From a virus: 22,061 bases of DNA. Position 1 is the first letter of the stretch, and each line of letters starts with the position of its first letter. The notes beneath the pieces were generated by a model, which saw nothing but the letters and a program-made list of their open reading frames with translations, was not told the origin of the DNA and made no database searches. The translations under genes and the position numbers were made by a program. The DNA is taken from the IMG/VR virus record IMGVR_UViG_3300030104_000141, positions 1 to 22,061 of that record. One strand, given 5' to 3'. Shown piece after piece: positions 2,215 to 21,759 of this stretch.

Positions 2215-4758
2215 TTATCTAAAGATAGAAGGGGCAGATCTAGGTGTTTTTTCACCTGGTTGCCACCAATATGTGTTCCTCTCGTCTTTTTTGGTTCTTT
2301 TTATTTTTCTTTTAATTTTTGAACGATATTTGGGGTCTATTTGCTCTTGTATGTATTCAAAAAAATATCTTTCTAAGACCAATCTCATGTACCAAGCAGA
2401 TCCGCCTGGTGAATTGTTACGCAAAAATTTAGCTATATCAGCTCCTAAGTTCATTTTTTTATTAGGGTCTAAGCCTTGATACACGTTGCCAAAAGTTAAA
2501 TCTAAGACCTGAAAAGCAAAACCTATAGTTGGCCCTGCTAACTCAGCTGTCCTGCCAGCTTGTGCATCTACAGAATATCTACCGCCAAAAAGTATATCAC
2601 CCGCAAAACCAAGACCCCCGCCATGCAGTAAAGAATTAAGCCAATATTTTGGATTGTTGTAATTATCATCTGTGCTTATATTTTTACCTTTGAATATATT
2701 TTTCATTTCGTGTGAAAAAGCACCCATAATCATAGTTGTAAACAGCAACGGCAAAATATAACCCATTTTACCTTTAATGCCTTTTCTATACACACCCCGT
2801 GCCATGTGTGTAAAATTAAAAGTCAAAGGAAACTGTTTAAATTGTAACACTGATCTTAAAAATTCACCTGCTACTGTTCCAGGTCTTGTTTTACCAGCTA
2901 TTACAGTTGCACCTCTAGCTGACGCAACTGGCACTGCAAAATCAACAAAATTTTGCATTGCATGCATGTATTTATAAGAAAGATCCTGTGCTAGTGCGGG
3001 TGATATATCTGTTCGTTTCGCAATGTCTTCACCACGCAAATATTCTGCACCCTTCCATTTTGCATCATCAACGCCAGCATCATAAGGTTTAGTTTGTCTT
3101 ATTATGTTCCATTCTGTTTCACCAATACCATACTCTTTTAAATAATTAGCATATTTTTCGTTTGTTTTTTGCAATTGTTTATATGATAAATTAAGATTCC
3201 TTGCATTAAATGCTTGAAATTCCATTCCTGCACCCCATCTGCCCGCTTGAGTAAGCCAAGATAGCTGTGTTGTTCTCAAAACAATATCTGCCAGTCTTCT
3301 TGAAAATTCGTAACTTTCTACTGTGTCAGCAGAATATCTTGCCATACCCGATGCAAGTGTACTCCAATGTTCTGCAGCCAAGCCTGATGTTGCAGCTATT
3401 TTTAATCGTGTATTTTTATCAACACCACCTAACGGACTTACAAAAGTTCTTAAATTTGACATCATAGCTTTTGCAGAAGGCACTCCAGCAAAACGTGCTG
3501 TTATTCTTGTTAAATTAAAATCACCAAGAGCTAAAATAGATGCAGATCCTAAATATGCAGCTGTTGCTATCTGTCTTAAAGTTGACATATTTTTTGCAAA
3601 CGATGCACCAACGGGTTGGTTAAGATCACCTCTAATATAATACAACTCTGCCTCTGCAGCTTCTAAAGCTGTTTTTGTTTTATTTTTTGCAGTCACTCTT
3701 TTGTTTACTGGTTGTAAACTAGCCCAAGTGTTTATTTCTTTTGACAAAGATCGTAAAAAACTATCAGGATTAGGCCCCATTATTTGCATAAGGGCAATAT
3801 CTCGTGATATTTTGTCAATATGAGTCATTACAACTTGAAATAAATCACCATCACTAAAACGCTCGGTATAAACTTTCCAAGAATCAAAATCTTTAAAATG
3901 TAAAAACCTGTGATCTAATCTTGAGTTTGCAAGACTGCGGCTGCCTTTACCTAATTTTACACCATGACCTTCTCTATAAATATTGTTGTAAGCCTCACCA
4001 AGTGCAACACGTAACTCTACATCATCAAAATTTTTACCTGTTTGATAGTTAATCATTTTTTCTCTGTTGAGCATTGGCATAACAAAATCTATCCATTCTT
4101 CTTGAGTTACCGATGCAACTTTTATTGAATTATGGTACTGAGGTATGTATCTAAAATCAGCTTTCGGTATACTGCCGCCTGCATCATTAAACATTTTTCT
4201 GCCTAACTCAATACCTCTTAAAACAGACTCAGCAACTTCTGATGCAGCTGTGTTTTTTGTAATACCTGGACTATATATTTCCTTACCAACTTGTTCTAAA
4301 TCAGCCTTGTTTCTTGTGCTACCTGTTAAAGTATGTCTATGGTTTTTTAAAAATTCAAACATTTCTGCGTGCAATTGACCTCTTACAATTTTAATTCTAT
4401 CTTCTGTATTTTGAAATCTTATCACACCCTCTGGTGTTTCAGATTTACCAACAATACGATACAGAGCTTCAGGAGGATTTATGTTACCTTTACTGTCTCT
4501 GTATGTTTCAAGTACATATTTTTTTGCTGTGTTTACAGCATTAGTTTGTGCAATTACTTGTCTTTTTTTATTTATAGCCTTGTATTGGTAACTTTCAAAA
4601 GTTGCTTTGCCCGCTAATCGTGCAGCTTCTGTTTCATTTGCACCTGCATCAATTGCTTTTTTTAATTCTTTTAAATACAATTCTTCTAATGATATTTGCT
4701 TTTCTTTTGATACTATCCCCTCTGCAGCCAAATTTGTAATACAATTAATAAAACTCAT
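2215..4758 (-). CDS. Large internal virion protein (T7 gp16-position; polyvalent-protein-like C-terminus)
   Basis: An 847-residue protein, last of three large genes between the tail tube and the fiber, where T7 carries gp15 and gp16. It is mostly helical. The segment LRSVLQFKQFPLTF (about 633-647) recalls the FKxFP motif of C-terminal domains in large phage internal and polyvalent proteins, from memory. It is followed by a hydrophobic stretch (YILPLLFTTMIMGAF, about 664-678), a Gly-rich segment (LLHGGGLGFAGDILFGG) and a very basic tail (KIKRKIKRTKK). This suits a protein ejected into the host envelope to help form the DNA conduit. The ATG at 4758 overlaps the upstream stop (ATGA) and has AGGGAG at good spacing; a GTG at 4764 would abut that site and is rejected. 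No lytic transglycosylase motif is visible. Function is inferred from position and hydrophobicity. Confidence 0.72.
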   Translation of the reverse strand: MSFINCITNLAAEGIVSKEKQISLEELYLKELKKAIDAGANETEAARLAGKATFESYQYKAINKKRQVIAQTNAVNTAKKYVLETYRDSKGNINPPEALYRIVGKSETPEGVIRFQNTEDRIKIVRGQLHAEMFEFLKNHRHTLTGSTRNKADLEQVGKEIYSPGITKNTAASEVAESVLRGIELGRKMFNDAGGSIPKADFRYIPQYHNSIKVASVTQEEWIDFVMPMLNREKMINYQTGKNFDDVELRVALGEAYNNIYREGHGVKLGKGSRSLANSRLDHRFLHFKDFDSWKVYTERFSDGDLFQVVMTHIDKISRDIALMQIMGPNPDSFLRSLSKEINTWASLQPVNKRVTAKNKTKTALEAAEAELYYIRGDLNQPVGASFAKNMSTLRQIATAAYLGSASILALGDFNLTRITARFAGVPSAKAMMSNLRTFVSPLGGVDKNTRLKIAATSGLAAEHWSTLASGMARYSADTVESYEFSRRLADIVLRTTQLSWLTQAGRWGAGMEFQAFNARNLNLSYKQLQKTNEKYANYLKEYGIGETEWNIIRQTKPYDAGVDDAKWKGAEYLRGEDIAKRTDISPALAQDLSYKYMHAMQNFVDFAVPVASARGATVIAGKTRPGTVAGEFLRSVLQFKQFPLTFNFTHMARGVYRKGIKGKMGYILPLLFTTMIMGAFSHEMKNIFKGKNISTDDNYNNPKYWLNSLLHGGGLGFAGDILFGGRYSVDAQAGRTAELAGPTIGFAFQVLDLTFGNVYQGLDPNKKMNLGADIAKFLRNNSPGGSAWYMRLVLERYFFEYIQEQIDPKYRSKIKRKIKRTKKDERNTYWWQPGEKTPRSAPSIFR

Positions 4759-7700
4759 ACGCACTCCCTTTTCACTAATTCACCTATAATTAATTCATCA
4801 TTAGCTATATCATCTTTAAATTGTTTTAATGTTTTTGTTACGTTTGTTATTTCGTTGCCATCTGCAATTTCACCAACAACTACCTCAGCATTATCTATAT
4901 CGTCTAACACGCCTTCTCTTTGTTTTATTTGATTATATGTTTCTTCAAACAATATTTTATCTTGAGCTTGCAAAGCATTTTTGTCTGCAACTTCTTCTTT
5001 AGTAAGCTCACCTTTTTTGTCTTTATATTTTCTGTAAGCCTTACCCAATTTATATACAGCCGCTAAATCTTTATGTTGTATTTGTACTTCCATACTAAAA
5101 CCGTCTTTTGTTACAAGATTAAAATGTATAGCCCTGTAGCCTGTGTCTTTTGTGGTAATAAAATAATTTTCGACTTCAATCATTTTTATATCTTGATCTC
5201 TTGCAGCTCTAAATACTTTGTTTACGTCCTCTAAAGTATCTACTAAAATTCTGCCTCCTAAATAATCACCTATGTATTGTCCGTCTATATTTTCGTCAAA
5301 ATTACGCAGTTTTTGTAGCTTTGTTTTTGTTGTTCCTGCGCCTTTAACTCTTGTTTCTATTGTTGCATTTTTTGTGCCAATCACTATATTATTAAGTGTG
5401 GCCTCTAAGTCAGGCTTGTGTTTTGTAGCTAGACTTAATAGTTCATCCACATTATTTGTATTTTGTAATATAGATTTTTTAGTTATGGCATTAAAACTAC
5501 CAATAGAAATTGTTGGATCAATAAGAGATGTAGGCGTTCCACTTGCTTTAGCAAAAACTGACTCAGGAGGTGAAATTGTTGTAGCCTGGAGTGTACCTAA
5601 ATCATCTTGGATGGATGCCTCAGCAGATTTTACAGTAGGTGATGTTTTAATTGCCCCCCCACTAACAAACTCAGGGTTGTTAGATGATATTGCTAATTCT
5701 GATTCTAAAGAAGCTAATTCCTGATTAGAATTTTTTCTGTTTTGTACTAAATTATTTGGATCATCAAAATTATCTAATTGTTTTTGTTTTAAGCTAGGCT
5801 CTGGGATTTTTGATATTTCTGATGACGTGCCTTCAATAATTGCACTCCGTCTATCTCCGCTTGCACTAATCCCCTTAGTATCACCTCGTTCAATTGCTCC
5901 TCTGATAGCTTCGATAAAAGTTTCCGTTGCTTCTCGTTGGTTGCCATCTGCCCAGAGTTTTGCTGACCTTGTAAGAGCATCTGAGATTTCACCTTTGCGG
6001 TTTGCAAGCGTTTCGATTTGGTAGATTGCGATTGCATTTTGTTCCTCCTGTGTTCTGTTATAACTTGTGTCTAGTTTATTTTTGCCATCCTTCACAATAC
6101 GTTGTTCGTTTTGCACAAGTGATGCCATAACGGTTTTGTCTTTTTTTAATTTATTTAAAGATGATTGTAATACCTTACCTCTTTCAACAATTAAACTTTC
6201 TTTTATAGTAGTTGTACCAAACATGTCTATTGTTTTTACTTCTCTATTGCCTGCCTGTAATATAGATTCTATTTGTGTGCGTATTTCTATGCCTGTAGCT
6301 GGTTTTGTTTTTTCTAATACTTTTATAACACTAAGATGTAATGCAGGATCATCGACTAATTCACCCACAGCTGCTGCAATTCTTGCATTTAATCCTGAGT
6401 TCATAAAATAACCCCAGGCATCATCACTTAGTTTGTATAGTTGTGTAGATAACCTGTACAATGATGAATTAGGAGCAACTTTATTTGCCATGCGTCCTAT
6501 GTACTCTGGGCTAACTCGTAATGCCCTTGCAACATCTACTGCATCTGCAGTGCCGTTCTGCACGTTGCGTATCATGGCCTCTGCCATAACTTCCTCTGGT
6601 GTAAATCCATCCAGCTCTCTGCGTACAGTAGTATTAATTATTATGTTTGCATCAGGATCTGCAATTGATAATCGTTTTGCAAGGGCAAGTCTTTGGTGTC
6701 CATCTGCTACAAAATATGTGCCATCAGCTTTTTCATAAACCATTAGTGAGCCTGCGGCATCTCTATCCCACTGTTTAACTCTTGCCAGTGTGTCTTTCAC
6801 ACCACGTTTATCACCACCAGTTTTAAATTGAAATGTTTCTGCGTCAAACAATATTTGATCTGGTGTCAAATATGTATCGTATGCAACTGGTCTGTTTTCT
6901 TTTAAAACAACAGGTATAGTTGACTCTGGCAATATTCTTGGTTGCTCGTTGTTACGCAGCCCGTCAGCTGCTGCTTCCATTCTTCGTATGTGTTCTATAG
7001 TTCCGTCAGCACCTGCCTCAAATGGTTTTTCAAGGTTATCATCAACAGAATTTTTTATATCTTCTATAACATTTTTAACTTGTGGTTTTTCTAATGCTGT
7101 TGGATTTAATTCTTGAACAACTTGCACAAGTTCGGTTGCATCTAAATTTTTAATGTTTTGTGCAAAATATTCCATAAATTTTACATCATCAAAATTTTCA
7201 TCTACAAATAATTTAGCTTTTAGATCTGGGCTTAAATTAGCAGCAGCTTTGATGACTTGTTGTTTTGCAGCTCCATATCCAAGTTGTATGCCTTTAGCAC
7301 TTCCTAAAAATACTGGAGGTATTGCAGCACCAAACAAAGTTGAAAACAAAACAACCTTAGCAGCATCGTTTACTGTGTATTCTATGCCAACGCTTTCTTT
7401 AAATGGCAATACTTGTGTTTCAATAGCTGTTGTAGCACCAAATGCTATAACTGCTTCAGCCGCTGTAACTCTTAACAAATTTGCAGTAAATGTTTTGCCT
7501 GTGCCATACATAAATCCTAGTGGCAATGTGCCTAAAATTAAAGGATCTGTGAAACCTGCCCCCACACCCCCTGTAAGTGTGCCAGCAAATCTGTCAAAAC
7601 TACTTTCTGCATATTGATTTACAGTAGCCAATCTTTGTTCACTATCTCTTGCAGCTTGAGCTTCTTTTTCAAAAAAATAATCAAAACCTTTGTACTTTTC

Positions 7701-8090
7701 TCTTTCTACAGGCGGTATGCTAGATAAATACGTCTGCATACGTTTTTGCACAAATTTTTTCTTTTCTTTAAATGGCAAGTCTTCATTAATGACAGCTTGT
7801 ATTTTATTTCTATAAAAATCTTGACTTAAAAATTCTTTTTCTCGTCTTTCAGCGTCACTAATATCTAAATCAGGCCTATAAGTTGTTGCGTGTGGTATAT
7901 TAGCGTCAGGAAAAGCATCGTTAAATTCATCTACCATAGCAGTGGTTGCCCTAACGTCTAAATGGTGTGCTGAAAAAGAGTTGTGATAATTTCTAAAATC
8001 ATCAAAAGCAACAGACATGTTATCGTTAAATCCTTGAGGATTTATCTGCATAGTATTTGTATTAGATTTACGTTTTGTGTTTATATACAT
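4755..8090 (-). CDS. Internal virion protein with ParB-like and RelA/SpoT-like domains
   Basis: A 1111-residue multidomain protein. Residues 165-265 contain Gly-rich hydrophobic segments (FAGTLTGGVGAGFTDPLILG, AAKVVLFSTLFGAAIPPVFLG) that could enter membranes. Residues about 386-475 look like a ParB/Srx-type domain with the VADGHQRLALAKRL signature (461-474), followed by a ParB-style helix-turn-helix (VDVARALRVSPEYIGRM, 518-534). A polar, low-complexity linker (about 760-870) leads to a RelA/SpoT-type synthetase domain (about 883-1015). There, RVK (914-916), K924, the D942 in GDYLGGRI, GYRAIH (984-989) and EVQIQ (1001-1005) line up with the substrate-binding and catalytic positions of that family. 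The start overlaps the upstream stop (TAATG). Its place among the internal virion genes suggests it is packaged and ejected. The domain calls are pattern recognition; enzymatic activity is inferred. Confidence 0.8.
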   Translation of the reverse strand: MYINTKRKSNTNTMQINPQGFNDNMSVAFDDFRNYHNSFSAHHLDVRATTAMVDEFNDAFPDANIPHATTYRPDLDISDAERREKEFLSQDFYRNKIQAVINEDLPFKEKKKFVQKRMQTYLSSIPPVEREKYKGFDYFFEKEAQAARDSEQRLATVNQYAESSFDRFAGTLTGGVGAGFTDPLILGTLPLGFMYGTGKTFTANLLRVTAAEAVIAFGATTAIETQVLPFKESVGIEYTVNDAAKVVLFSTLFGAAIPPVFLGSAKGIQLGYGAAKQQVIKAAANLSPDLKAKLFVDENFDDVKFMEYFAQNIKNLDATELVQVVQELNPTALEKPQVKNVIEDIKNSVDDNLEKPFEAGADGTIEHIRRMEAAADGLRNNEQPRILPESTIPVVLKENRPVAYDTYLTPDQILFDAETFQFKTGGDKRGVKDTLARVKQWDRDAAGSLMVYEKADGTYFVADGHQRLALAKRLSIADPDANIIINTTVRRELDGFTPEEVMAEAMIRNVQNGTADAVDVARALRVSPEYIGRMANKVAPNSSLYRLSTQLYKLSDDAWGYFMNSGLNARIAAAVGELVDDPALHLSVIKVLEKTKPATGIEIRTQIESILQAGNREVKTIDMFGTTTIKESLIVERGKVLQSSLNKLKKDKTVMASLVQNEQRIVKDGKNKLDTSYNRTQEEQNAIAIYQIETLANRKGEISDALTRSAKLWADGNQREATETFIEAIRGAIERGDTKGISASGDRRSAIIEGTSSEISKIPEPSLKQKQLDNFDDPNNLVQNRKNSNQELASLESELAISSNNPEFVSGGAIKTSPTVKSAEASIQDDLGTLQATTISPPESVFAKASGTPTSLIDPTISIGSFNAITKKSILQNTNNVDELLSLATKHKPDLEATLNNIVIGTKNATIETRVKGAGTTKTKLQKLRNFDENIDGQYIGDYLGGRILVDTLEDVNKVFRAARDQDIKMIEVENYFITTKDTGYRAIHFNLVTKDGFSMEVQIQHKDLAAVYKLGKAYRKYKDKKGELTKEEVADKNALQAQDKILFEETYNQIKQREGVLDDIDNAEVVVGEIADGNEITNVTKTLKQFKDDIANDELIIGELVKRECV
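5789..6037 (-). CDS. Candidate overprinted ORF inside the internal virion gene
   Basis: An 82-codon ORF lies in another frame of the same strand, within the 4755-8090 gene (host residues about 685-767, the region after the ParB-like domain). Its ATG at 6037 is preceded by a perfect AGGAGG (6049-6044) with a six-base spacer, as good as the site of the capsid gene. In the host frame those bases encode Gln-Glu-Glu. The product would be basic and Gln/Lys-rich, with a plausible amphipathic helix (LSEEQLNEVILRGLVQAEI). No family is recognised. It may be a chance open frame, since the host gene's codon use can generate one. Confidence 0.3.
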   Translation of the reverse strand: MQSQSTKSKRLQTAKVKSQMLLQGQQNSGQMATNEKQRKLLSKLSEEQLNEVILRGLVQAEIDGVQLLKARHQKYQKSQSLA

Positions 8091-10318
8091 TAGTAATTTA
8101 TGCTGTTATAAATTTTTGTTAGATCAAAAATTACAAGATTGCCTTCTTGATCTCTTACTTCTATGTCTGTAGTTCTAGGATCGTTACCAAATGCAAATGT
8201 GTATTGACCAAAACCATAAGGTATAAGATGTACCATGTCCTGATTAAATAAATCTTCTACAGTTGCGTTTCTAGGCCCACCTGTTGTCAATTCACCTGGC
8301 AAATACGGCATGCTTGATGTTGCCTGCTCAAGTAAAGAGTCAGTCATGTTTTCATCTAACATTTCTTCAAGTGTTTTTAGGCCATCAAAATATTTACCTT
8401 TGTAGTCAGCGTTTCTATGATACGTTTCACCCATCATCACTCCTGGCACTGTAATCATGTGACCGTTGTATTCTTCTAGGCCTCCAAAACCATTAAAATA
8501 ACCAGCTGCTACTTGCACAGCTTGTTCCATTTGGTCTGTCACGTCAGGTTCTAATCCGCTTTCATACTGCAAAGCTAACTCTGGGTCACTTAGTATAAGA
8601 CCTTGGAAAATCAAGTCAGATGCTTCACTCATCATTCTAAAAACCTGTCTGTCATCTAGCAAAGGACTTATCTGAAATGTTTGAAAAGCAGCAGATTTAA
8701 TATTTGAGTAATCAGCCGCAGTAGGCTTAAATTGATTTAGTATAGCTTTGGTGTTTGGATCGTCTTTTAGTGCAAAGGCTTTGATAGCACCTTGCAGTTC
8801 TGAACTGCTGCCAGTTACATTAAATAGTGTGCCTATGTGTGCTATCCCGTTTGCTCCGTCTAGTTTTGCAATTTGTTGAAAAGCTGTTGGGCCTTTATCT
8901 TGTGCCATTGTGCTTATAGTTGCTATAAGTTTTGTAATATCTTCTTCTGAACCGCTGTTCAATATTGTGGCTATTTGTTGTTTTTCTGTTTCAACAAAAA
9001 ATTGAGGGTCTTGCTTAAATTGTAATCCAGCTGTTATAGCTTGTTTGTATCTTAATTGTAATGGTTCTAAACTATCAACTTGGCTAAAATCTATTGGTTG
9101 AATATTCATGCCTGCACTTACAGCTACAGCTAATAAATTATCCTCATCATTCTTGCTTCTAAAATCTAAATATTTTTTAAGTGTTTTTTCTTTAGATACA
9201 TTTAATGAGTCAAAATCAGCTGTACCTGATTGTTGCATGTTTGCAGATTTAATTGCATTGTATTCAGCCGCAACCATATCTAAAGGCATTTGTTTTATAG
9301 GTGACATGTAATCGTAAACTTGCAATGAATTATTTAAATCAACCAGTTCTTCTCGTAATCCATCTTTGCCGTTAGCTACAAGCTGTTCATGCAGAGCTGT
9401 GCCAGTTTCCATAAGATTTTTAATATCAGATACATTTGGTGCATAGCCATCTTTTGTAACATCTATCACATCTTTTATTTGTGCAACAATTTCTGTTTTT
9501 TGCGTTGTCAACGCACTAACAGCCATGCTTTGTGCTTGTTTCGTAGCACCGTCAGCTTTTGCTTTTAGATCTGCTTTAGTTTTTGGGTCAAGTCCGTTGT
9601 AACCACCGTTATTATATATTTCGTAAAATTTTCCTAAATTATTATTTATTAGTTGTGTTGCGTGTAGAATAGATAGCTCGTCTTCTAAGTTTTTATTAAA
9701 TTGTTCTTTACTTAAATTAGGCTGCATGTTTGCTCTTGATAATTTATCGTAAATACCAACAACAGTTTCACTGCCAAACATGTTTTCTTCTTGCATTTGT
9801 TTTACAAGTTTGTTTTCATTCATATCAGCCGTCAACCAAGTATTAAAAAACAATTTTTTTTGATCGTTTACATCTTCTGCAACAGCATCTCTGTTATTAC
9901 TAAATATAGCATTTTCTATAGTAGGATAGTTACCACGCACCATGTCGTTAGATTTATTAAAAAACCATTCTGATACATGTTTGTTTTGTGTTGTATATTT
10001 ATCGTATATGCTTTGTATAAGTTTTTGTGATTCATCAAAATAATCACTTGCACCGTTTCTTACATCCTTGCTTGTTTTGTATTTATTAAAAATATCTGTA
10101 TGCTGTAAAGTTAATTCATTCATCATTTCAGTTTGTAATCTATCGTCTGCAATACGTTGGTTTTTTTCATTAACTCTCATTGCAAGATCAGATGCTGCGT
10201 CTGCAAATCTAGATACAGCGTTACCTACTTGCTCACCGCCTGTGTTAATAAATGGTCGGCTTCTTGTAACTGGTGATCTTGGTTGTGTTTGTGATGTATA
10301 TGTTGGAATTTTAACCAT
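8090..10318 (-). CDS. Internal virion protein (T7 gp15-position)
   Basis: A 742-residue, largely alpha-helical soluble protein, second after the tail tube B and GNAT genes. The N-terminus has a basic Ser/Thr-Pro-rich start (MVKIPTYTSQTQPRSPVTRS) followed by a helical region (GGEQVGNAVSRFADAASDLA), a style I associate with internal proteins of podoviruses. No catalytic motif or membrane segment stands out. The ATG at 10318 overlaps the upstream stop by eight bases (ATGGTTAA) and has no strong ribosome binding site, so translation is probably coupled to the gp14-like gene. The 3' end overlaps the next start as TAATG. By order and size it matches T7 gp15, an ejected component of the periplasmic tunnel; this is inference from synteny rather than sequence identity. 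Confidence 0.7.
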   Translation of the reverse strand: MVKIPTYTSQTQPRSPVTRSRPFINTGGEQVGNAVSRFADAASDLAMRVNEKNQRIADDRLQTEMMNELTLQHTDIFNKYKTSKDVRNGASDYFDESQKLIQSIYDKYTTQNKHVSEWFFNKSNDMVRGNYPTIENAIFSNNRDAVAEDVNDQKKLFFNTWLTADMNENKLVKQMQEENMFGSETVVGIYDKLSRANMQPNLSKEQFNKNLEDELSILHATQLINNNLGKFYEIYNNGGYNGLDPKTKADLKAKADGATKQAQSMAVSALTTQKTEIVAQIKDVIDVTKDGYAPNVSDIKNLMETGTALHEQLVANGKDGLREELVDLNNSLQVYDYMSPIKQMPLDMVAAEYNAIKSANMQQSGTADFDSLNVSKEKTLKKYLDFRSKNDEDNLLAVAVSAGMNIQPIDFSQVDSLEPLQLRYKQAITAGLQFKQDPQFFVETEKQQIATILNSGSEEDITKLIATISTMAQDKGPTAFQQIAKLDGANGIAHIGTLFNVTGSSSELQGAIKAFALKDDPNTKAILNQFKPTAADYSNIKSAAFQTFQISPLLDDRQVFRMMSEASDLIFQGLILSDPELALQYESGLEPDVTDQMEQAVQVAAGYFNGFGGLEEYNGHMITVPGVMMGETYHRNADYKGKYFDGLKTLEEMLDENMTDSLLEQATSSMPYLPGELTTGGPRNATVEDLFNQDMVHLIPYGFGQYTFAFGNDPRTTDIEVRDQEGNLVIFDLTKIYNSINY

Positions 10319-10808
10319 TTTTTATTTCACTGATTTTAGCAGCCCCTCCTAATAATGTTGTACCTGCGTTAAAATACGATGCCCTTTTTGCATTTTTGCC
10401 TCTAGCCATAGCAGCTGCACCTTGCATACGTTCTATAACGCTAGTTTCTATTTTATCTGCTGAGTCCACTTTTGCGTTATACATAATAACTTCTTTTTCT
10501 ATCTCAGCTTCAGCATAAATGTTTTGCAAAACCTCAAGTGGCGTGCCTTCTAATTTTACGCCAGATTTTAGATACGCTGACTCTGTTGACGATGCTAACG
10601 CAGTAAAATCTTTTTCAAATATTCTGACATTTCTTCTGCCTAGATCTATTGCTGCCTGTGCATCAAGTTCTGCTTTTGCAGCGTTACGTTCTGCAATTTG
10701 CTGATTAGCTCTACCTTCTTGTTCAGCAGCTTTACCAGCAGATATTTGACCAGCAGCTCCTACAGCAGTTGCTCCTGCCACTAACGCTATTGTTACTGGA
10801 TCACCCAT
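10311..10808 (-). CDS. Small internal virion protein (T7 gp14-like)
   Basis: A 165-residue protein with an Ala/Gly-rich hydrophobic N-terminus (VTIALVAGATAVGAAGQI, residues 5-22) followed by a long charged helix (about 25-135) and a Gly-containing C-terminal segment (FNAGTTLLGGAAK). This arrangement, and the place between the gp13-like and gp15-like genes, fits T7 gp14, which is ejected first and forms a channel in the outer membrane. The ATG at 10808 shares a base with the upstream stop (TAATG). Similar proteins are common in podoviruses, from family knowledge; membrane insertion here is inferred. Confidence 0.75.
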   Translation of the reverse strand: MGDPVTIALVAGATAVGAAGQISAGKAAEQEGRANQQIAERNAAKAELDAQAAIDLGRRNVRIFEKDFTALASSTESAYLKSGVKLEGTPLEVLQNIYAEAEIEKEVIMYNAKVDSADKIETSVIERMQGAAAMARGKNAKRASYFNAGTTLLGGAAKISEIKNG

Positions 10809-11245
10809 TAGAAAACCCTCGCATATAAATTATAATCCTCTTTGTCCATATAATGTTTCATAATACCTTCTGATTTTAATCCTAGCCATTGTGCAAACTT
10901 ATGACCTATCTCAAAATCAGATCTAACTGTTGTTTGTAATCTTTCAACCTTGTTATCTACCATAACTCTGTCAAAAATTTTTTTTATTATTCTTGCCGTC
11001 TGTATAGGGTAGTCATGTATATCAATCGTTGCCATGACCCATCCTTCGTAAACATTGCCCCACATATTTACCATTCCGCCTGCTGCAATAATTTTATCGT
11101 CAATCAAACCAGTCCAACTCATGCCAGGTTTTTCTAATTGATCAAGCATATCTGTGTATTCTGGTTTTACTTTTAGTAAATCATTATTTAGTCTGCGTGT
11201 TGCTATAAATTTACCATGCTCTGCTGTAAAAGGTATGATTTGCAT
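10808..11245 (-). CDS. GNAT-fold protein in the T7 gp13 position
   Basis: A 145-residue protein with an acetyltransferase-like outline: a charged N-terminal helix, a central strand (WTGLIDDKIIAAGGM), then WGNVYEGWVMATI, a helix (TARIIKKIFDRVMVD), the LQTTVRSDFEIGHKFAQWLG segment and a final strand (YNLYARVF). Phage T7 gp13 (the DUF2833 family) also has a GNAT-like character and sits at this place between tail tube B and gp14. A clear acetyl-CoA-binding Q/RxxGxG/A loop is not evident, so it may be catalytically dead and act in virion assembly. A TTG at 11248 is possible, but the ATG at 11245 is preferred because it forms TGATG with the upstream stop. Confidence 0.72.
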   Translation of the reverse strand: MQIIPFTAEHGKFIATRRLNNDLLKVKPEYTDMLDQLEKPGMSWTGLIDDKIIAAGGMVNMWGNVYEGWVMATIDIHDYPIQTARIIKKIFDRVMVDNKVERLQTTVRSDFEIGHKFAQWLGLKSEGIMKHYMDKEDYNLYARVF

Positions 11246-13770
11246 CAACCCTCGTACACAGTTACTTCAGGATAAATTGACAGCACGGTCAATGGCAACG
11301 GCTGTGTTTGTCTTACAAACACATGGCCGTCTGTTCCGTAGTCATCTCTAAGTTCAATTTTTTTGTCACCAGAAAATAAATTTACAGGTGAACCCATAAG
11401 AGCTGCACTAGACCTAAACGGTATATTCTCCATATTGTCTAAATCACCGCCTATTTCTACGCCTAATGTTTTATGCAATCTTACAGTTATTTCATTTATT
11501 CTTTTTATTTTACCTTGCGCAACTCCTTGTGATGCACCTGCCTCAATCCTTAATGTTTGCAATATAGAATCATAATTTAATCCTACATGCACTTTTTGTG
11601 CAAGTCTGTCTAATGTTATGCTGCCACCTGATACAGTTTTGTTTGCATGTGATGCACCGTCTGCAAGTATTTGTACAGCCTCACCTTCTAAATGATCTAG
11701 TCCTGATATTGTTTGGGTTGGCACACTGTCGTATGTCAATCCACTATCTAAGAAAAAAGCATCGTCTTGTGTTTCTCCAAAATCAAATGATTGCAAAAAT
11801 TCAACATAACGTCTTGTTGCTCCGTTTATGTATCTGTTGACTATCAGATAAACTTGATATTCATCTTGATCAGAAGGTATAACTCCAACAGACTCAGCCT
11901 GTGCGTCTAACAATATTTTGTCTGTGCGTGCTGACGTAACTGTTGTGTCATATTGTAAATTTACAAAAGTTTTTATATTTCTGTCTGCTGCAATCTTAAA
12001 CTGATTATCATCAATTCTTTTTACAAAATATTTTGCTTTGTCAGTAATATTGCTTAGACCTGTACCCCCTAAATCATAATAAAAATGATCACCTGTAGAT
12101 AAACCATGATTTGTTGAGTACACAACGTCAGTTGCTAAATTTACACCTTTGAAAATAAATTGTGTTGTATCTGTTCCAGGTGCAGTAGTTAAATCAACAG
12201 CTGTGCCTGCTGTTGCGTTAGCTGACGTAGTTGCTAACTTAATAGTGTTGCTGTCAACTGATATTACAAAATATAACAAATCAGTTGTTATACCGCCTAT
12301 GGCGTTAGAGCTAGTAAAATAATATACAGGATCTCCTGTGCTAAAACCGTGTGAACTTATAGTGATTGTATCATTTGCAACACTAACATTCGTGCTGTTA
12401 GCAGTAAAACTTTTAAATGATCTTGCTATTGTTTTTCCGCTATCACTATAACCGCCAAGTACATGCCTATGCCATCCAATAACTTTTTCGTTTCTCTGAT
12501 ATGTTAGTCCAAGTAATGTGCCATCGTTTCTTGTGGCCCACAAAATACTGTCGGGTTCTTGCTGATATGCAAAAGATGTCAAGCCGCCTTGTGTAATATG
12601 TTCTGCAAGAATAGTCATGTCTGGTGCTATGTAGCCATCAACTTCATAGTTATATACAAGCTCTCTAACTTTTCTTTTTGCACGCTGTAAAAACATTGTG
12701 ACGTTAGCTATTTGTATAGCGTCAACATTTGCAGATCCATAGTTTGTTTGTCTTGTAATCTGTATATTCGTAGGCGTTATAGGTTCACTGTTGCTACCTG
12801 ATGTTGCTATAAACTCACCGCCTGTTGTTCCTATGAGTAGCTGTGTAGATGCAGATAAAAATCTTATGGCGTTTACCTGATTAGATGCAATGGTATATAT
12901 CATAGCGTCTGTTGCGTTTGTACCAGTTGCAAAGTTTTCGTATGATCCAGCAACACTAAAAAACAAAGACTGCGGATTATTATTTGTTCCAGCAAACACA
13001 AGACGCTGCTCATAGAAAGTTACTGAACTTGGAAAGTTGTCTGTTGAACTTAAACTTGGATTAGGGCTGCCTGTGATTGTACACGCACCAATGCTCCATG
13101 ATGTATGACCTGTTCTTGTAAGTTTTTGGATTGCTACACTAGGATGCACTAAGTACATAACGTCTGCTGATTGTGCAAACTTGATGTCAAATAGTTGGTC
13201 GGTTGTGTAAGGTGAAGTTATTTGATACACACGAAACGCAGTGCCTGCTGAAGCGTATGCTGTAAGAGATGACGTATCAAAATTGTTGCCGTCCATATCT
13301 TGCAACTGGAACGTGTTAGTTGCTACGCCCGCAACTTTAAATTGTCTACTATTAAGCTCTGTCATGCCAACTATGCCTGACAAGATAACATAATCTCCAT
13401 TAGAATAACCGTGACTGGTTGCAGTTACAACGCCAGGATTAGCTTGTGTTATACCTGATATAGTTTTGCCTGTTTCTGTAATGATGCCGTTGTCTTTGTG
13501 AAACCTAATGTATTGGTTTCCGAACTCCATCATGTACGTTTGTGTCGTAGAAAATTCAAAAGGTATAAGACGTGTTTTATTGCCGCTTATTTTTACTTCA
13601 CTTACAAAATTTGTGCCTGGCCGTCTTGATGCTCCACCGTGCGGGTGTATAACCATATTCTCTAATGTTTTACAGCCATTAAAATATTTTTCTAAATCTG
13701 TTCTGCCGTCAAGTCGTGGTGACAGCTCACCTGCTGTAAAATTCGTAAAGCCAAAAGTTGTTTTAGCCAT
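11245..13770 (-). CDS. Tail tubular protein B (T7 gp12-like nozzle)
   Basis: An 841-residue tail nozzle protein. The N-terminus (FGFTNFTAGELSPRLDGRTD) with NGCKTLENMVIHPHGGASRR is characteristic of gp12-type proteins, as are FYEQRLVFAGT (about 252-262) and the WATRNDGTLLGLTY segment (411-424) of the beta-propeller core. Three inserted repeats resemble FCCH-type beta modules: residues about 113-180 (SHGYSNGD), 463-530 (SHGFSTGD) and 546-600 (NHGLSTGD), each continuing with a Val-Asp-x-Asn-x-Phe/Ile-x-Leu/Ile-like strand. The protein attaches below tail tubular protein A and closes the tail. The ATG at 13770 overlaps the upstream TAA (TAATG). The C-terminus (VTVYEG) encodes a GAGGGT just before the next start. 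Confidence 0.92.
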   Translation of the reverse strand: MAKTTFGFTNFTAGELSPRLDGRTDLEKYFNGCKTLENMVIHPHGGASRRPGTNFVSEVKISGNKTRLIPFEFSTTQTYMMEFGNQYIRFHKDNGIITETGKTISGITQANPGVVTATSHGYSNGDYVILSGIVGMTELNSRQFKVAGVATNTFQLQDMDGNNFDTSSLTAYASAGTAFRVYQITSPYTTDQLFDIKFAQSADVMYLVHPSVAIQKLTRTGHTSWSIGACTITGSPNPSLSSTDNFPSSVTFYEQRLVFAGTNNNPQSLFFSVAGSYENFATGTNATDAMIYTIASNQVNAIRFLSASTQLLIGTTGGEFIATSGSNSEPITPTNIQITRQTNYGSANVDAIQIANVTMFLQRAKRKVRELVYNYEVDGYIAPDMTILAEHITQGGLTSFAYQQEPDSILWATRNDGTLLGLTYQRNEKVIGWHRHVLGGYSDSGKTIARSFKSFTANSTNVSVANDTITISSHGFSTGDPVYYFTSSNAIGGITTDLLYFVISVDSNTIKLATTSANATAGTAVDLTTAPGTDTTQFIFKGVNLATDVVYSTNHGLSTGDHFYYDLGGTGLSNITDKAKYFVKRIDDNQFKIAADRNIKTFVNLQYDTTVTSARTDKILLDAQAESVGVIPSDQDEYQVYLIVNRYINGATRRYVEFLQSFDFGETQDDAFFLDSGLTYDSVPTQTISGLDHLEGEAVQILADGASHANKTVSGGSITLDRLAQKVHVGLNYDSILQTLRIEAGASQGVAQGKIKRINEITVRLHKTLGVEIGGDLDNMENIPFRSSAALMGSPVNLFSGDKKIELRDDYGTDGHVFVRQTQPLPLTVLSIYPEVTVYEG

Positions 13771-19134: not shown

Positions 19135-19317
19135 TTAATATCCCATCAAAGTTTTTTTGCCCTGACGCATGGCGTTAAGTCCTAACATATTGTTAAACTC
19201 TGTAAAAACTTTGCCTTGTTTCTGTTTAGGCTTAAGTGATTTAGTCATGTCTGTTGCTGCTGCAATCTTTATTGGAGAGCTAAAGGGTGCAGATAGCATG
19301 TTATTAGATTGATACAT
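19135..19317 (-). CDS. Small protein with KKTLMGY tail (60 aa)
   Basis: A 60-residue protein starting MYQSNNMLSAPFSSPIKIAA and ending AMRQGKKTLMGY. No known domain is recognised. It is basic in its second half (KSLKPKQKQGK, RQGKK). The ATG at 19317 shares one base with the upstream TGA (TGATG); a TTG at 19320 is also in frame but less likely. Its last codons (GGA TAT TAA) place GGGA in front of the portal ATG. Its tail is a variant of the TLxG ending shared by five other small proteins in the window. Confidence 0.72.
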   Translation of the reverse strand: MYQSNNMLSAPFSSPIKIAAATDMTKSLKPKQKQGKVFTEFNNMLGLNAMRQGKKTLMGY

Positions 19318-19790
19318 CAACCGAGTAATGTTGGTCTAAATATAACAGGATCACCAAGCACACCTTTGCTTGATGTTTGCACTAAAGGTTTTCTGCCTTT
19401 TGCCATTTTAGTACCGCCAGTAGCAGCGCTATAAGCTCCAAGTTCTGCTGTAGCTCCAGCTTTTTTGTCTGCTGCGGCTGCGGCTGCCTTAGCTGCGGCT
19501 TCTGCCGCTGCTTTCTTACGAGCTGCTTCTTCGGCAGCTGCTTTCTTGGCAGCTTCTTCAGCTGCTTTTTTCTTTGCAGCTTCTTCTGCGGCCTTCTGTT
19601 CTGCGGCAGCTTTTGCCTCGGCTGCTGCTATTTCTGCTGGTGTTGGCCCAGGTGGGGGCGGTGGTGGTGTAGGTGCTACTGGTGTAGGTGCTGGTGTAGG
19701 TGCTGGTGCAGGTGGTGGTGCAACCACATCAGGTTTCACATCAATAACCTTGTCAACTAAGTTTATAACCTTTGGAACTATTTTAGACAT
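19317..19790 (-). CDS. Pro/Ala-rich low-complexity protein with TLLG tail
   Basis: A 157-residue protein with three parts: a short start (SKIVPKVINLVDKVIDVKPD), a proline-rich stretch (about residues 24-52, PAPAPTPAPT and PPPPPPGP), and a TolA-like Ala-Lys-Glu helix (about 53-112, repeats such as KKAAAEEAARKKAAAEAAAK). The C-terminal ~45 residues are of normal complexity (KGRKPLVQTSSKGVLGDPVI, then FRPTLLG) and look related to the end of the 20184-20474 protein. A proline arm plus a long single helix would make an extended spacer between an N-terminal and a C-terminal docking site. Function is unknown; similar genes sit between terminase and portal in marine podoviruses, from memory. The ATG overlaps the upstream stop by eight bases. 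Confidence 0.75.
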   Translation of the reverse strand: MSKIVPKVINLVDKVIDVKPDVVAPPPAPAPTPAPTPVAPTPPPPPPGPTPAEIAAAEAKAAAEQKAAEEAAKKKAAEEAAKKAAAEEAARKKAAAEAAAKAAAAAADKKAGATAELGAYSAATGGTKMAKGRKPLVQTSSKGVLGDPVIFRPTLLG

Positions 19791-20475: not shown

Positions 20476-21759
20476 TTAATCTCCTAATGGATTGTAGTGT
20501 AGACCACTAGCCTCTTTCTGCGGTGGTCGTAGTTGGTTTAGATCTAGTTCTTGGTGTGCCACTGCTACATATCTCCAGCAATCAGCATAGTGACTTGACC
20601 AGTCATGCACAGGCCTAGAAAATGTTCTGTCCTTGTCTATGTATTTTCTATGATACCACTTCATGGCATCTAGAAACGGTTTGCACTTTTCTCTGTCTAT
20701 AAAAGTTTTTGACAGCAGCATTTGTCCTGCGTGCAGCCCGTCCTCTATCGGCAACTTAGGGCATATCTTTATAGGCCGCATGCCTAACTGATACGCATAC
20801 TCTTGCCTAGAGTGGCCCGTTGACATCTCTCTGACGGCAACATCGTGCGGAAACACATAGTTTCGTATTAAATAATTACGATCTTTTATAACTTGAGCAT
20901 AATGATCAAGGCCATGATTGCTATCAGAATAACAGTCAATGACGAATAATCCTCGACCAATTGTTTGAGTGAATAAAAGACACGTTTGATCGGAGATACC
21001 CAGGTCGAAATATACGTCCACAGGGTAGCCAGCATCATACGGATATAGTCCAATTCGTTTCTCCTCCTCTAGTTTTTCAATATACTTACCATAGATTGCA
21101 CCTGATACATTAGCAGTCCAGCTGCACTCAAACTCTTGCATGTACTGATCTTCTGTCATCAGCTTCTTTGCAGAGTCTAGTTCTTCTTGTAGCAATAATT
21201 GTGTCTCACTTGCCTTAAATAGACATGTAAACCATTCTTTGTTTGCCTTGGCATCCTCGTATAGATGATAGAACGCATCCATACCATTAGGTGTACCAAT
21301 AAATATCACCTTGCCTTGACGGTCAGCTATGGCTGGCCGCTGCACTTCACTGAACATTCTGCTGTCCATTTGCGCATACTCATCGTTTACTACCAGGTCT
21401 AGCCGCAGCCCCCTGGCTGCGTCAATGTTTTCTGATCCAAACAAAGTTATTCTTGATCCGTTTGGAAAGTCAGCACGCAGCTCAGTCTCATTGAACTTCA
21501 TGCCAGGTATCATCCTGGAATATTCTTTGACGTAATCCCAGGCCACCTGCTTTGCTTGCACCCTAGTTGGGCAAAAGAAAGCTCCTCTAAAATCCTTATG
21601 CTTTGTGATCAACGCTTCTTTGATAAGATGGTTGATCGAAAATATCGTTTTGCCGCCCCGTCTGTGCATGACGCACACTGCAAACCTATAGTTTTGCAAC
21701 GCATCATGTAGCACCTTTTGCTGCGGCCTAGGTGAATACGGTATCTTGATAACTTCCAT
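20476..21759 (-). CDS. terL: Terminase large subunit
   Basis: A 427-residue packaging motor. The ATPase domain has a Walker A-type motif MHRRGGKT (31-38), a Walker B region LVVNDE (122-127, with Asn where Asp is more usual before the DE pair) and a coupling motif IGTPNG (154-159). The nuclease domain has the first acidic residue in YFDLGISD (D252), a HDVAVREMSTGHSR block (305-318) and HDWSSHYADCWRY (385-397). The length is somewhat shorter than T7 gp19 (about 586) and near that of compact podoviral terminases. The ATG shares one base with the upstream stop (TAATG). It stands at the head of the structural block, unlike T7, where it comes after the fiber. No small terminase is seen in the window. 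Confidence 0.95.
   Translation of the reverse strand: MEVIKIPYSPRPQQKVLHDALQNYRFAVCVMHRRGGKTIFSINHLIKEALITKHKDFRGAFFCPTRVQAKQVAWDYVKEYSRMIPGMKFNETELRADFPNGSRITLFGSENIDAARGLRLDLVVNDEYAQMDSRMFSEVQRPAIADRQGKVIFIGTPNGMDAFYHLYEDAKANKEWFTCLFKASETQLLLQEELDSAKKLMTEDQYMQEFECSWTANVSGAIYGKYIEKLEEEKRIGLYPYDAGYPVDVYFDLGISDQTCLLFTQTIGRGLFVIDCYSDSNHGLDHYAQVIKDRNYLIRNYVFPHDVAVREMSTGHSRQEYAYQLGMRPIKICPKLPIEDGLHAGQMLLSKTFIDREKCKPFLDAMKWYHRKYIDKDRTFSRPVHDWSSHYADCWRYVAVAHQELDLNQLRPPQKEASGLHYNPLGD

Follow-up and report, generated by a model that had tools for sequence, protein, structure and literature searches.

Results

Gene order of the window

The window analyzed here is a stretch of 22,061 bases, corresponding to bases 1-22061 of a linear and possibly incomplete virus record of 34,444 bases; IMG/VR records are fragments without known hosts. 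Its minus strand carries, in order, terminase (20476-21759), portal, a scaffold-like protein, the major capsid protein and tail tubular proteins A and B, followed by an acetyltransferase-like and a phrog_418 internal virion protein, a 742-aa protein, the gene under study (the carrier), a phrog_684 protein and a fibre. The portal matched Pfam Head-tail_con with an E value of 5.5e-156, while terminase, scaffold, tail tubular A and fibre were named from gene order and a reading of the sequence and not from a family match. Because of this order, in which head, tail tubular and internal virion genes precede the carrier, the carrier occupies the place of a T7-type ejection protein. The initial annotation had compared it with the ejected core proteins of T7, which is correct for gene position but does not extend further, as this phage carries an integrase; among the proteins read, none stood out as a T7-type RNA polymerase. 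The tyrosine integrase is encoded in the remainder of the record, and thus the phage is probably a temperate podovirus.

The start of the phrog_684 gene overlaps the end of the carrier gene, with no gene between the two in the window, and family searches with the 742-aa protein gave no significant match (Table 1). No HD_4 alarmone hydrolase was matched anywhere in the 34,444-base record, itself possibly incomplete, and such an enzyme was set aside as a candidate antidote. An antisense open reading frame at 5272-5724(+) was dismissed as a mechanical one that nothing supports. The acetyltransferase-like protein (10808-11248) adjoins the ejection genes and matches the internal-virion families phrog_308, phrog_4177 and phrog_4470, and a 157-aa protein near the portal gene (19317-19790) has a very high content of Ala, Lys and Pro.

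Table 1. Coordinates of the carrier gene, its parts and its neighbours in the window
Feature	Coordinates	Strand	Basis
Carrier gene, 1111 aa, ATG start	4755..8090	-	ORF; position of an ejection protein (T7 gp16-like)
Next gene, 849 aa virion structural protein	2215..4764	-	phrog_684, E 9.8e-135
Preceding gene, 742 aa, gp15 position	8090..10318	-	
Internal virion protein	10311..10808	-	phrog_418, E 9.6e-15
Candidate membrane-insertion segments in the helical N-terminal part (hydrophobic, within residues 205-265)	7296..7478	-	Hydropathy, AlphaFold
ParB-like domain and DNA-binding-type part, residues 404-612, DGHQR motif	6255..6881	-	VIA-align
Linker from core to cargo, residues 739-870, probably flexible	5481..5876	-	Mostly low pLDDT
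RelA/SpoT-type synthetase (cargo) domain, residues 879-1061	4908..5456	-	Pfam PF04607, AlphaFold, RelP match
Lys916 of R-x-K ATP-binding motif	5343..5345	-	Invariant in A9
Asp942 (Mg2+ Asp, syn2; D-Y-L-G-G-R)	5265..5267	-	Invariant in A9
Tyr985-x-Ala-x-His989 (syn3, acceptor base pocket)	5124..5138	-	Tyr and His invariant in A9
Glu1001-Val-Gln1003 (syn4, catalytic Glu)	5082..5090	-	Glu and Gln invariant in A9
Conserved C-terminal hairpin-helix peptide, residues 1069-1110, near-terminal Cys	4761..4886	-	Follows every cargo type

The synthetase domain and its conserved residues

Residues 914-1025 of the carrier matched Pfam RelA_SpoT (PF04607) with an E value of 8.4e-10 and a score of 39.4 bits (curated cut-off, 27), and a six-frame search of the genome with the same model gave 43.7 bits at 5016-5351. 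The NCBIfam search agreed with this assignment, and the PDB sequence matches were all RelA/SpoT-type pyrophosphokinases. The RelA/SpoT synthetase domain proposed in the initial annotation was thus confirmed, with every motif string quoted there present in the reading frame; the fold reaches slightly past the location given there, 5031-5453, and spans approximately residues 879-1061.

Conservation was examined in an alignment of 12 homologues (A9; 30-71% identity, 200 domain columns), in which 12 of the 200 columns were invariant: L884, A888, K916, D942, G946, F977, G984, Y985, H989, G997, E1001 and Q1003. All six catalytic residues named beforehand (K916, D942, Y985, H989, E1001 and Q1003) were among these, for which the probability by chance is ~1e-8, and none had been lost in any homologue. 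The earlier statement that all catalytic positions are kept therefore holds for the window protein, but Arg914 of the R-x-K motif is no constant of the family: it is kept in only the three nearest proteins and is replaced by Asp, Asn or Ser in remoter ones. In the window protein, Ala takes the place of Ser in the YxSxH signature of syn3 (AIH), and QH replaces the RT that follows E-x-Q-I. The dN/dS of the cargo was 0.17-0.32, in line with purifying selection, although these values are approximate because dS (1.2-2.0) was near saturation. Since the catalytic residues are invariant in the 12 homologues, the synthetase domain is probably catalytically competent. A chance match was ruled out, as profile, fold and invariance concur.

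Predicted structure of the domain and of the whole carrier

The AlphaFold model of the synthetase domain, made with A9 as input, had a pLDDT of 85.3, and small alarmone synthetases ranked first when it was searched with Foldseek and VIA-align. The best match was S. aureus RelP (Z 17.0, 2.8 Å over 166 residues), and other matches included B. subtilis SAS1 (Z 16.9), CapRel (Z 14.2) and Tas1 (Z 13.6), with long RSH enzymes at Z 8.5-13. Structure prediction thus bore out the synthetase fold. The domain resembles the small alarmone synthetases RelP and RelQ in fold (Z 15-17), in its Syn motifs and in having no hydrolase domain; unlike these stand-alone cellular enzymes, it is the C-terminal domain of a 1111-aa phage protein, so that it may work like a stand-alone small alarmone synthetase but is not one.

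The model of the full-length carrier had a pLDDT of 75.6 and a pTM of 0.37. Like T7 gp15 and gp16, the carrier is large, is encoded past tail tubular and internal virion proteins and has a helical N-terminal part with hydrophobic stretches, whereas in place of the lytic transglycosylase of T7 gp16 it has a ParB-fold core and an enzyme cargo; a Pfam search of the window carrier gave no match to the gp16-type N-terminal lytic transglycosylase domain. Residues 404-612 aligned to ParB/Noc structures, DNA-binding part included, with a best Z of 10.6 in VIA-align, and some of these alignments had high rmsd values because the two sub-domains are hinged. The FQFK and DGHQR motifs of this core were invariant in 49 homologues. 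Pfam ParB models did not match the carrier core at E values up to 5, and thus the likeness to P1 DdrB is by fold only; the DdrB-ParB assignment by Pfam was dropped for lack of a match, and we restrict the claim to a ParB fold. Both the N-domain and the DNA-binding region of the ParB-like part resemble ParB/Noc CTP-binding proteins.

At the C-terminal end, residues 1069-1107 form a hairpin and helix in the full-length model. All 85 complete tails have a Cys near the C terminus, within the last nine residues in 83 of them and slightly further in for the other two, and this peptide is possibly a packaging or processing tag. A similar β-hairpin and helix was modelled at residues 615-660 (DNA 6111-6248) as well as at 1069-1107 (4770-4886), and the pair may be a repeat flanking the cassette.

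Relatives of the carrier

When the domain by itself was used as a single-sequence query, IMG/VR gave no match and INPHARED only weak ones; the family was recovered by searching with the ParB core, not with the domain. One scan with the core gave 400 related IMG/VR loci, and the same search in bacteria gave 16 contigs, mostly alpha- and gammaproteobacterial. The synthetase domain was kept in relatives with 73% (L003/L002) and 67% (L009) identity across the whole protein, with the L003 and L009 orthologues equal in length to the window carrier, and it occurred at 30-39% identity in eight further orthologues (L028-L034 and L049) and in L096 and L117. The IMG/VR loci found with the canonical domain class had it in the same gene family (on one contig, the gene was split by the contig ends).

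The C-terminal cargo slot

Typical podoviral carriers either stop ~90-160 residues past the core or hold an insert there, and a few others are much longer. Whatever the cargo, complete podoviral carriers end in a similar C-terminal peptide. The cargo was classified in the best-scoring 80 of the 400 IMG/VR loci, which is not a random sample; the sampled rows comprised 29 with a divergent RelA-like domain, 22 with Zeta, 17 that were empty, 12 with the canonical domain, 6 with a third RelA-like class and 9 with other contents. Zeta-toxin kinases were matched in 16 of 58 tails, a PBECR1 RNase cargo was found in two Aureimonas loci, and one ART-like cargo gave a weak match, under the Pfam cut-off.

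An iterated profile also recruited RelA-like domains that Pfam misses. When the classes were compared with the canonical one profile to profile, the two divergent RelA-like classes were linked to it (98% and 93%) and the Zeta class was excluded (0.4%). The first of these (EGYFDRK...GEIQIW; L071, L076, L057, L067 and others) keeps the Lys, Asp, Tyr, Glu and Gln positions and is missed by Pfam in the members tried; its syn3 His is mostly replaced by Lys, which might correspond to a new specificity. The third class (DSYRFKT...GWRIIAFDLRMPNGQLVEWYLP), found in the tails of L050, L051, L054, L061, L073 and L091, is RelA-like by profile comparison (93%), and Pfam misses L050, the member tried.

In relatives, the divergent domains that occupy this slot no longer have the syn3 His, or lack still more of the motifs, and therefore the fold can outlast the canonical chemistry. 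The window domain might be catalytically dead and have a purely structural or nucleotide-binding role in the ejection apparatus. We regard this as very improbable, since the catalytic set is invariant in the class to which the window protein belongs, and since several relatives have the carrier without any such domain, which makes the domain dispensable for structure.

Exchange of the cargo as a cassette

On a tree of the ParB core, the cargo labels required 29 changes. In the group L050, L051, L052 and L057, the core branches are of zero or near-zero length and yet three kinds of cargo are present; at the DNA level, these four were 89-100% identical in the core, 23-53% in the cargo and 87-98% in the tail. 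Near-identical carriers with unrelated cargo, the pattern by which polymorphic toxins are recognized, are thus found in this group. The same drop in identity was seen at lower overall identity in the pairs L054/L053, L073/L064 and L091/L085, and the canonical L096 falls among Zeta carriers, again with a drop over the cargo. As the DNA identity of near-identical carriers falls from ~95% in the core to ~35% in the cargo and recovers to ~90% in the tail, the slot recombines as a cassette. The nearest relatives of the window hold the same cargo class, so that swaps were seen in relatives and none for the window's own gene.

The ejection protein thus resembles a carrier whose payload can be changed, as the slot is filled by other toxin-like enzymes in its relatives. 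The initial annotation missed this larger point, namely that several cargos, the synthetase domain among them, can take each other's place in one slot.

Discussion

Proposed function

Homology, fold, invariant catalytic residues, gene position and cassette exchange in relatives, all obtained by computation, are best accommodated if the RelA/SpoT 3'-pyrophosphokinase is an exchangeable cargo of a ParB-core ejection protein that is injected and makes a (p)ppGpp-like alarmone in the host, to which we assign a probability of about 0.58. From the gene position and the family names, we infer that the carrier is packaged in the virion with the ejection apparatus, and it would then enter the newly infected cell together with the phage DNA. 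There, the domain would act as a working 3'-pyrophosphokinase of small-alarmone-synthetase fold, with a guanosine nucleotide as the most likely acceptor of pyrophosphate, and its presumed product, a (p)ppGpp-like alarmone, would slow host growth and translation and shift transcription as infection or lysogeny begins. Few ejected copies could suffice because the product would be made catalytically. In a back-of-envelope estimate, an assumed 5-10 copies working at 1-10 turnovers per second for ten minutes would give roughly 3,000-60,000 molecules, which would amount to micromolar to ~0.1 mM concentrations in a cell the size of E. coli and to higher ones in a very small marine cell. An early effect on alarmones, ATP or translation in the host, as the initial annotation had suggested, is plausible, and the idea had already been put forward in general terms for phage polyvalent proteins (PMC5512222).

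The identity of the product is the part of this proposal with the most serious competitor. A toxic pyrophosphokinase of other specificity would make (p)ppApp and drain ATP, as Tas1 and Apk2 do, or pyrophosphorylate the CCA end of tRNA, as FaRel2 and CapRel do, and would halt host metabolism or translation. Tas1 (Z 13.6) and CapRel (Z 14.2) both resemble the domain in structure, the slot is elsewhere occupied by Zeta toxins, a PBECR1 RNase and an ART-like domain, and a phage MuF-Apk2 enzyme yields only (p)ppApp (PMC12226406). We nevertheless consider this reading unlikely, though still a serious one, as the closest folds are the (p)ppGpp-making RelP and RelQ and His989 of the guanosine-type syn3 is invariant, neither of which settles specificity. 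An SxH signature in syn3, of which the window domain keeps the His, marks guanosine pyrophosphokinases and GxN marks Apk2, but swaps of the Syn motifs in Apk2 left its specificity as it was (PMC12226406); thus, the invariant syn3 His is weak evidence for a guanosine preference, and the acceptor is not readable from the sequence.

The synthetase could also act in the producing cell or the lysogen rather than in the newly infected cell, through late expression, by excluding superinfecting phages or in defence against rival ones. An integrase gene is present in the phage, and nucleotide-signal enzymes acting against rival elements were mentioned by Iyer et al. (PMC5512222); however, the domain is embedded in a late structural-type protein instead of forming a separate gene, no partner gene adjoins the carrier, and the 34 kb record holds no HD_4 alarmone hydrolase, so that we judge this improbable. 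The record, though possibly incomplete, gave no HD_4 match, and no gene lies between the carrier and the phrog_684 gene; as negative evidence, this fits a host- rather than a kin-directed enzyme.

For the family as a whole, we see an even chance that a widespread podoviral ejection protein is a delivery platform with one recombining slot that injects interchangeable signal-nucleotide or toxin enzymes at the onset of infection. If so, it would be the phage equivalent of polymorphic toxins, directed against the host, and its cargo would comprise alarmone synthetases, RelA-like enzymes with altered chemistry, Zeta kinases, RNases and ART-like domains. Such an exchangeable slot in an ejection protein would reveal the way in which phages trade effectors that act early, and the virion itself could set the stringent response before phage gene expression if an alarmone synthetase is injected.

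Comparison with known systems

The fold is used as a weapon in the T6SS effector Tas1 and in the anti-phage defence protein CapRel, from which the window protein differs in delivery route and in its side of the conflict. The assayed Apk2 proteins, polymorphic toxins from temperate phages in which MuF is joined to a (p)ppApp synthetase, likewise have a RelA/SpoT-like domain toward the C terminus of a protein associated with the head (PMC12226406). In contrast to Apk2, the window protein has AxH and not GxN in syn3, with the His invariant in 12 homologues, and its cargo precedes a conserved carrier tail rather than forming the very end. No MuF domain was matched in the window carrier among Pfam families at E values up to 1, and this missing match together with the different syn3 rules out an identity as a MuF-type toxin. 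Apk2 has the linked immunity genes iapK and aph1 (an HD hydrolase); here, the overlapping next gene encodes a virion protein, and HD_4 gave no match in the possibly incomplete record.

In 2017, Iyer et al. predicted RelA/SpoT domains in phage polyvalent proteins of spirochaete and epsilonproteobacterial prophages and in MuF fusions. They described DdrB-ParB alongside RelA/SpoT in prophages of Helicobacter, and zeta-like kinases in conjugative elements, in further polyvalent proteins and in MuF proteins. An alarmone-driven host shut-down was already hypothesized there, and P1 DdrB was reported to be in the P1 head (PMC5512222). The carrier likewise combines unrelated domains, a ParB fold and RelA/SpoT, in one late phage protein, and it shares with the polyvalent proteins its large size, its late-gene setting and a ParB-type domain combined with RelA/SpoT, PBECR, ART or zeta-like domains, for which delivery with the DNA was proposed (PMC5512222). 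Unlike those proteins, it is a podoviral ejection protein with one slot, for which cassette exchange was seen by DNA comparison in relatives, and the Pfam ParB and MPTase models do not match it. Literature searches on toxin, Zeta or RelA/SpoT cargo in ejection and internal virion proteins yielded no paper on this podoviral family, most subscription journals lying outside the search. The new element is a podoviral carrier, an ejection protein whose core has a ParB fold and whose slot recombines; phage RelA/SpoT polyvalent proteins were already known. The 2017 proposal becomes directly testable with a domain that is small and whose catalytic residues are clear, and with naturally occurring pairs of carriers that are nearly identical but differ in cargo or have none.

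Among viral predicted structures, the top two matches to the carrier were proteins of 1321 and 1104 residues that were given no name, and the next ones were uncultured Caudovirales proteins annotated as RelA/SpoT, "DdrB-like domain-containing" or "ART-PolyVal-like"; public databases therefore already contain proteins of this kind. The same ParB core also lies inside a 3,900-aa protein of the isolated Ruegeria phage 45A6 (L005, 6781-18543), which, read by eye, seems to contain helicase-like and methylase-like stretches.
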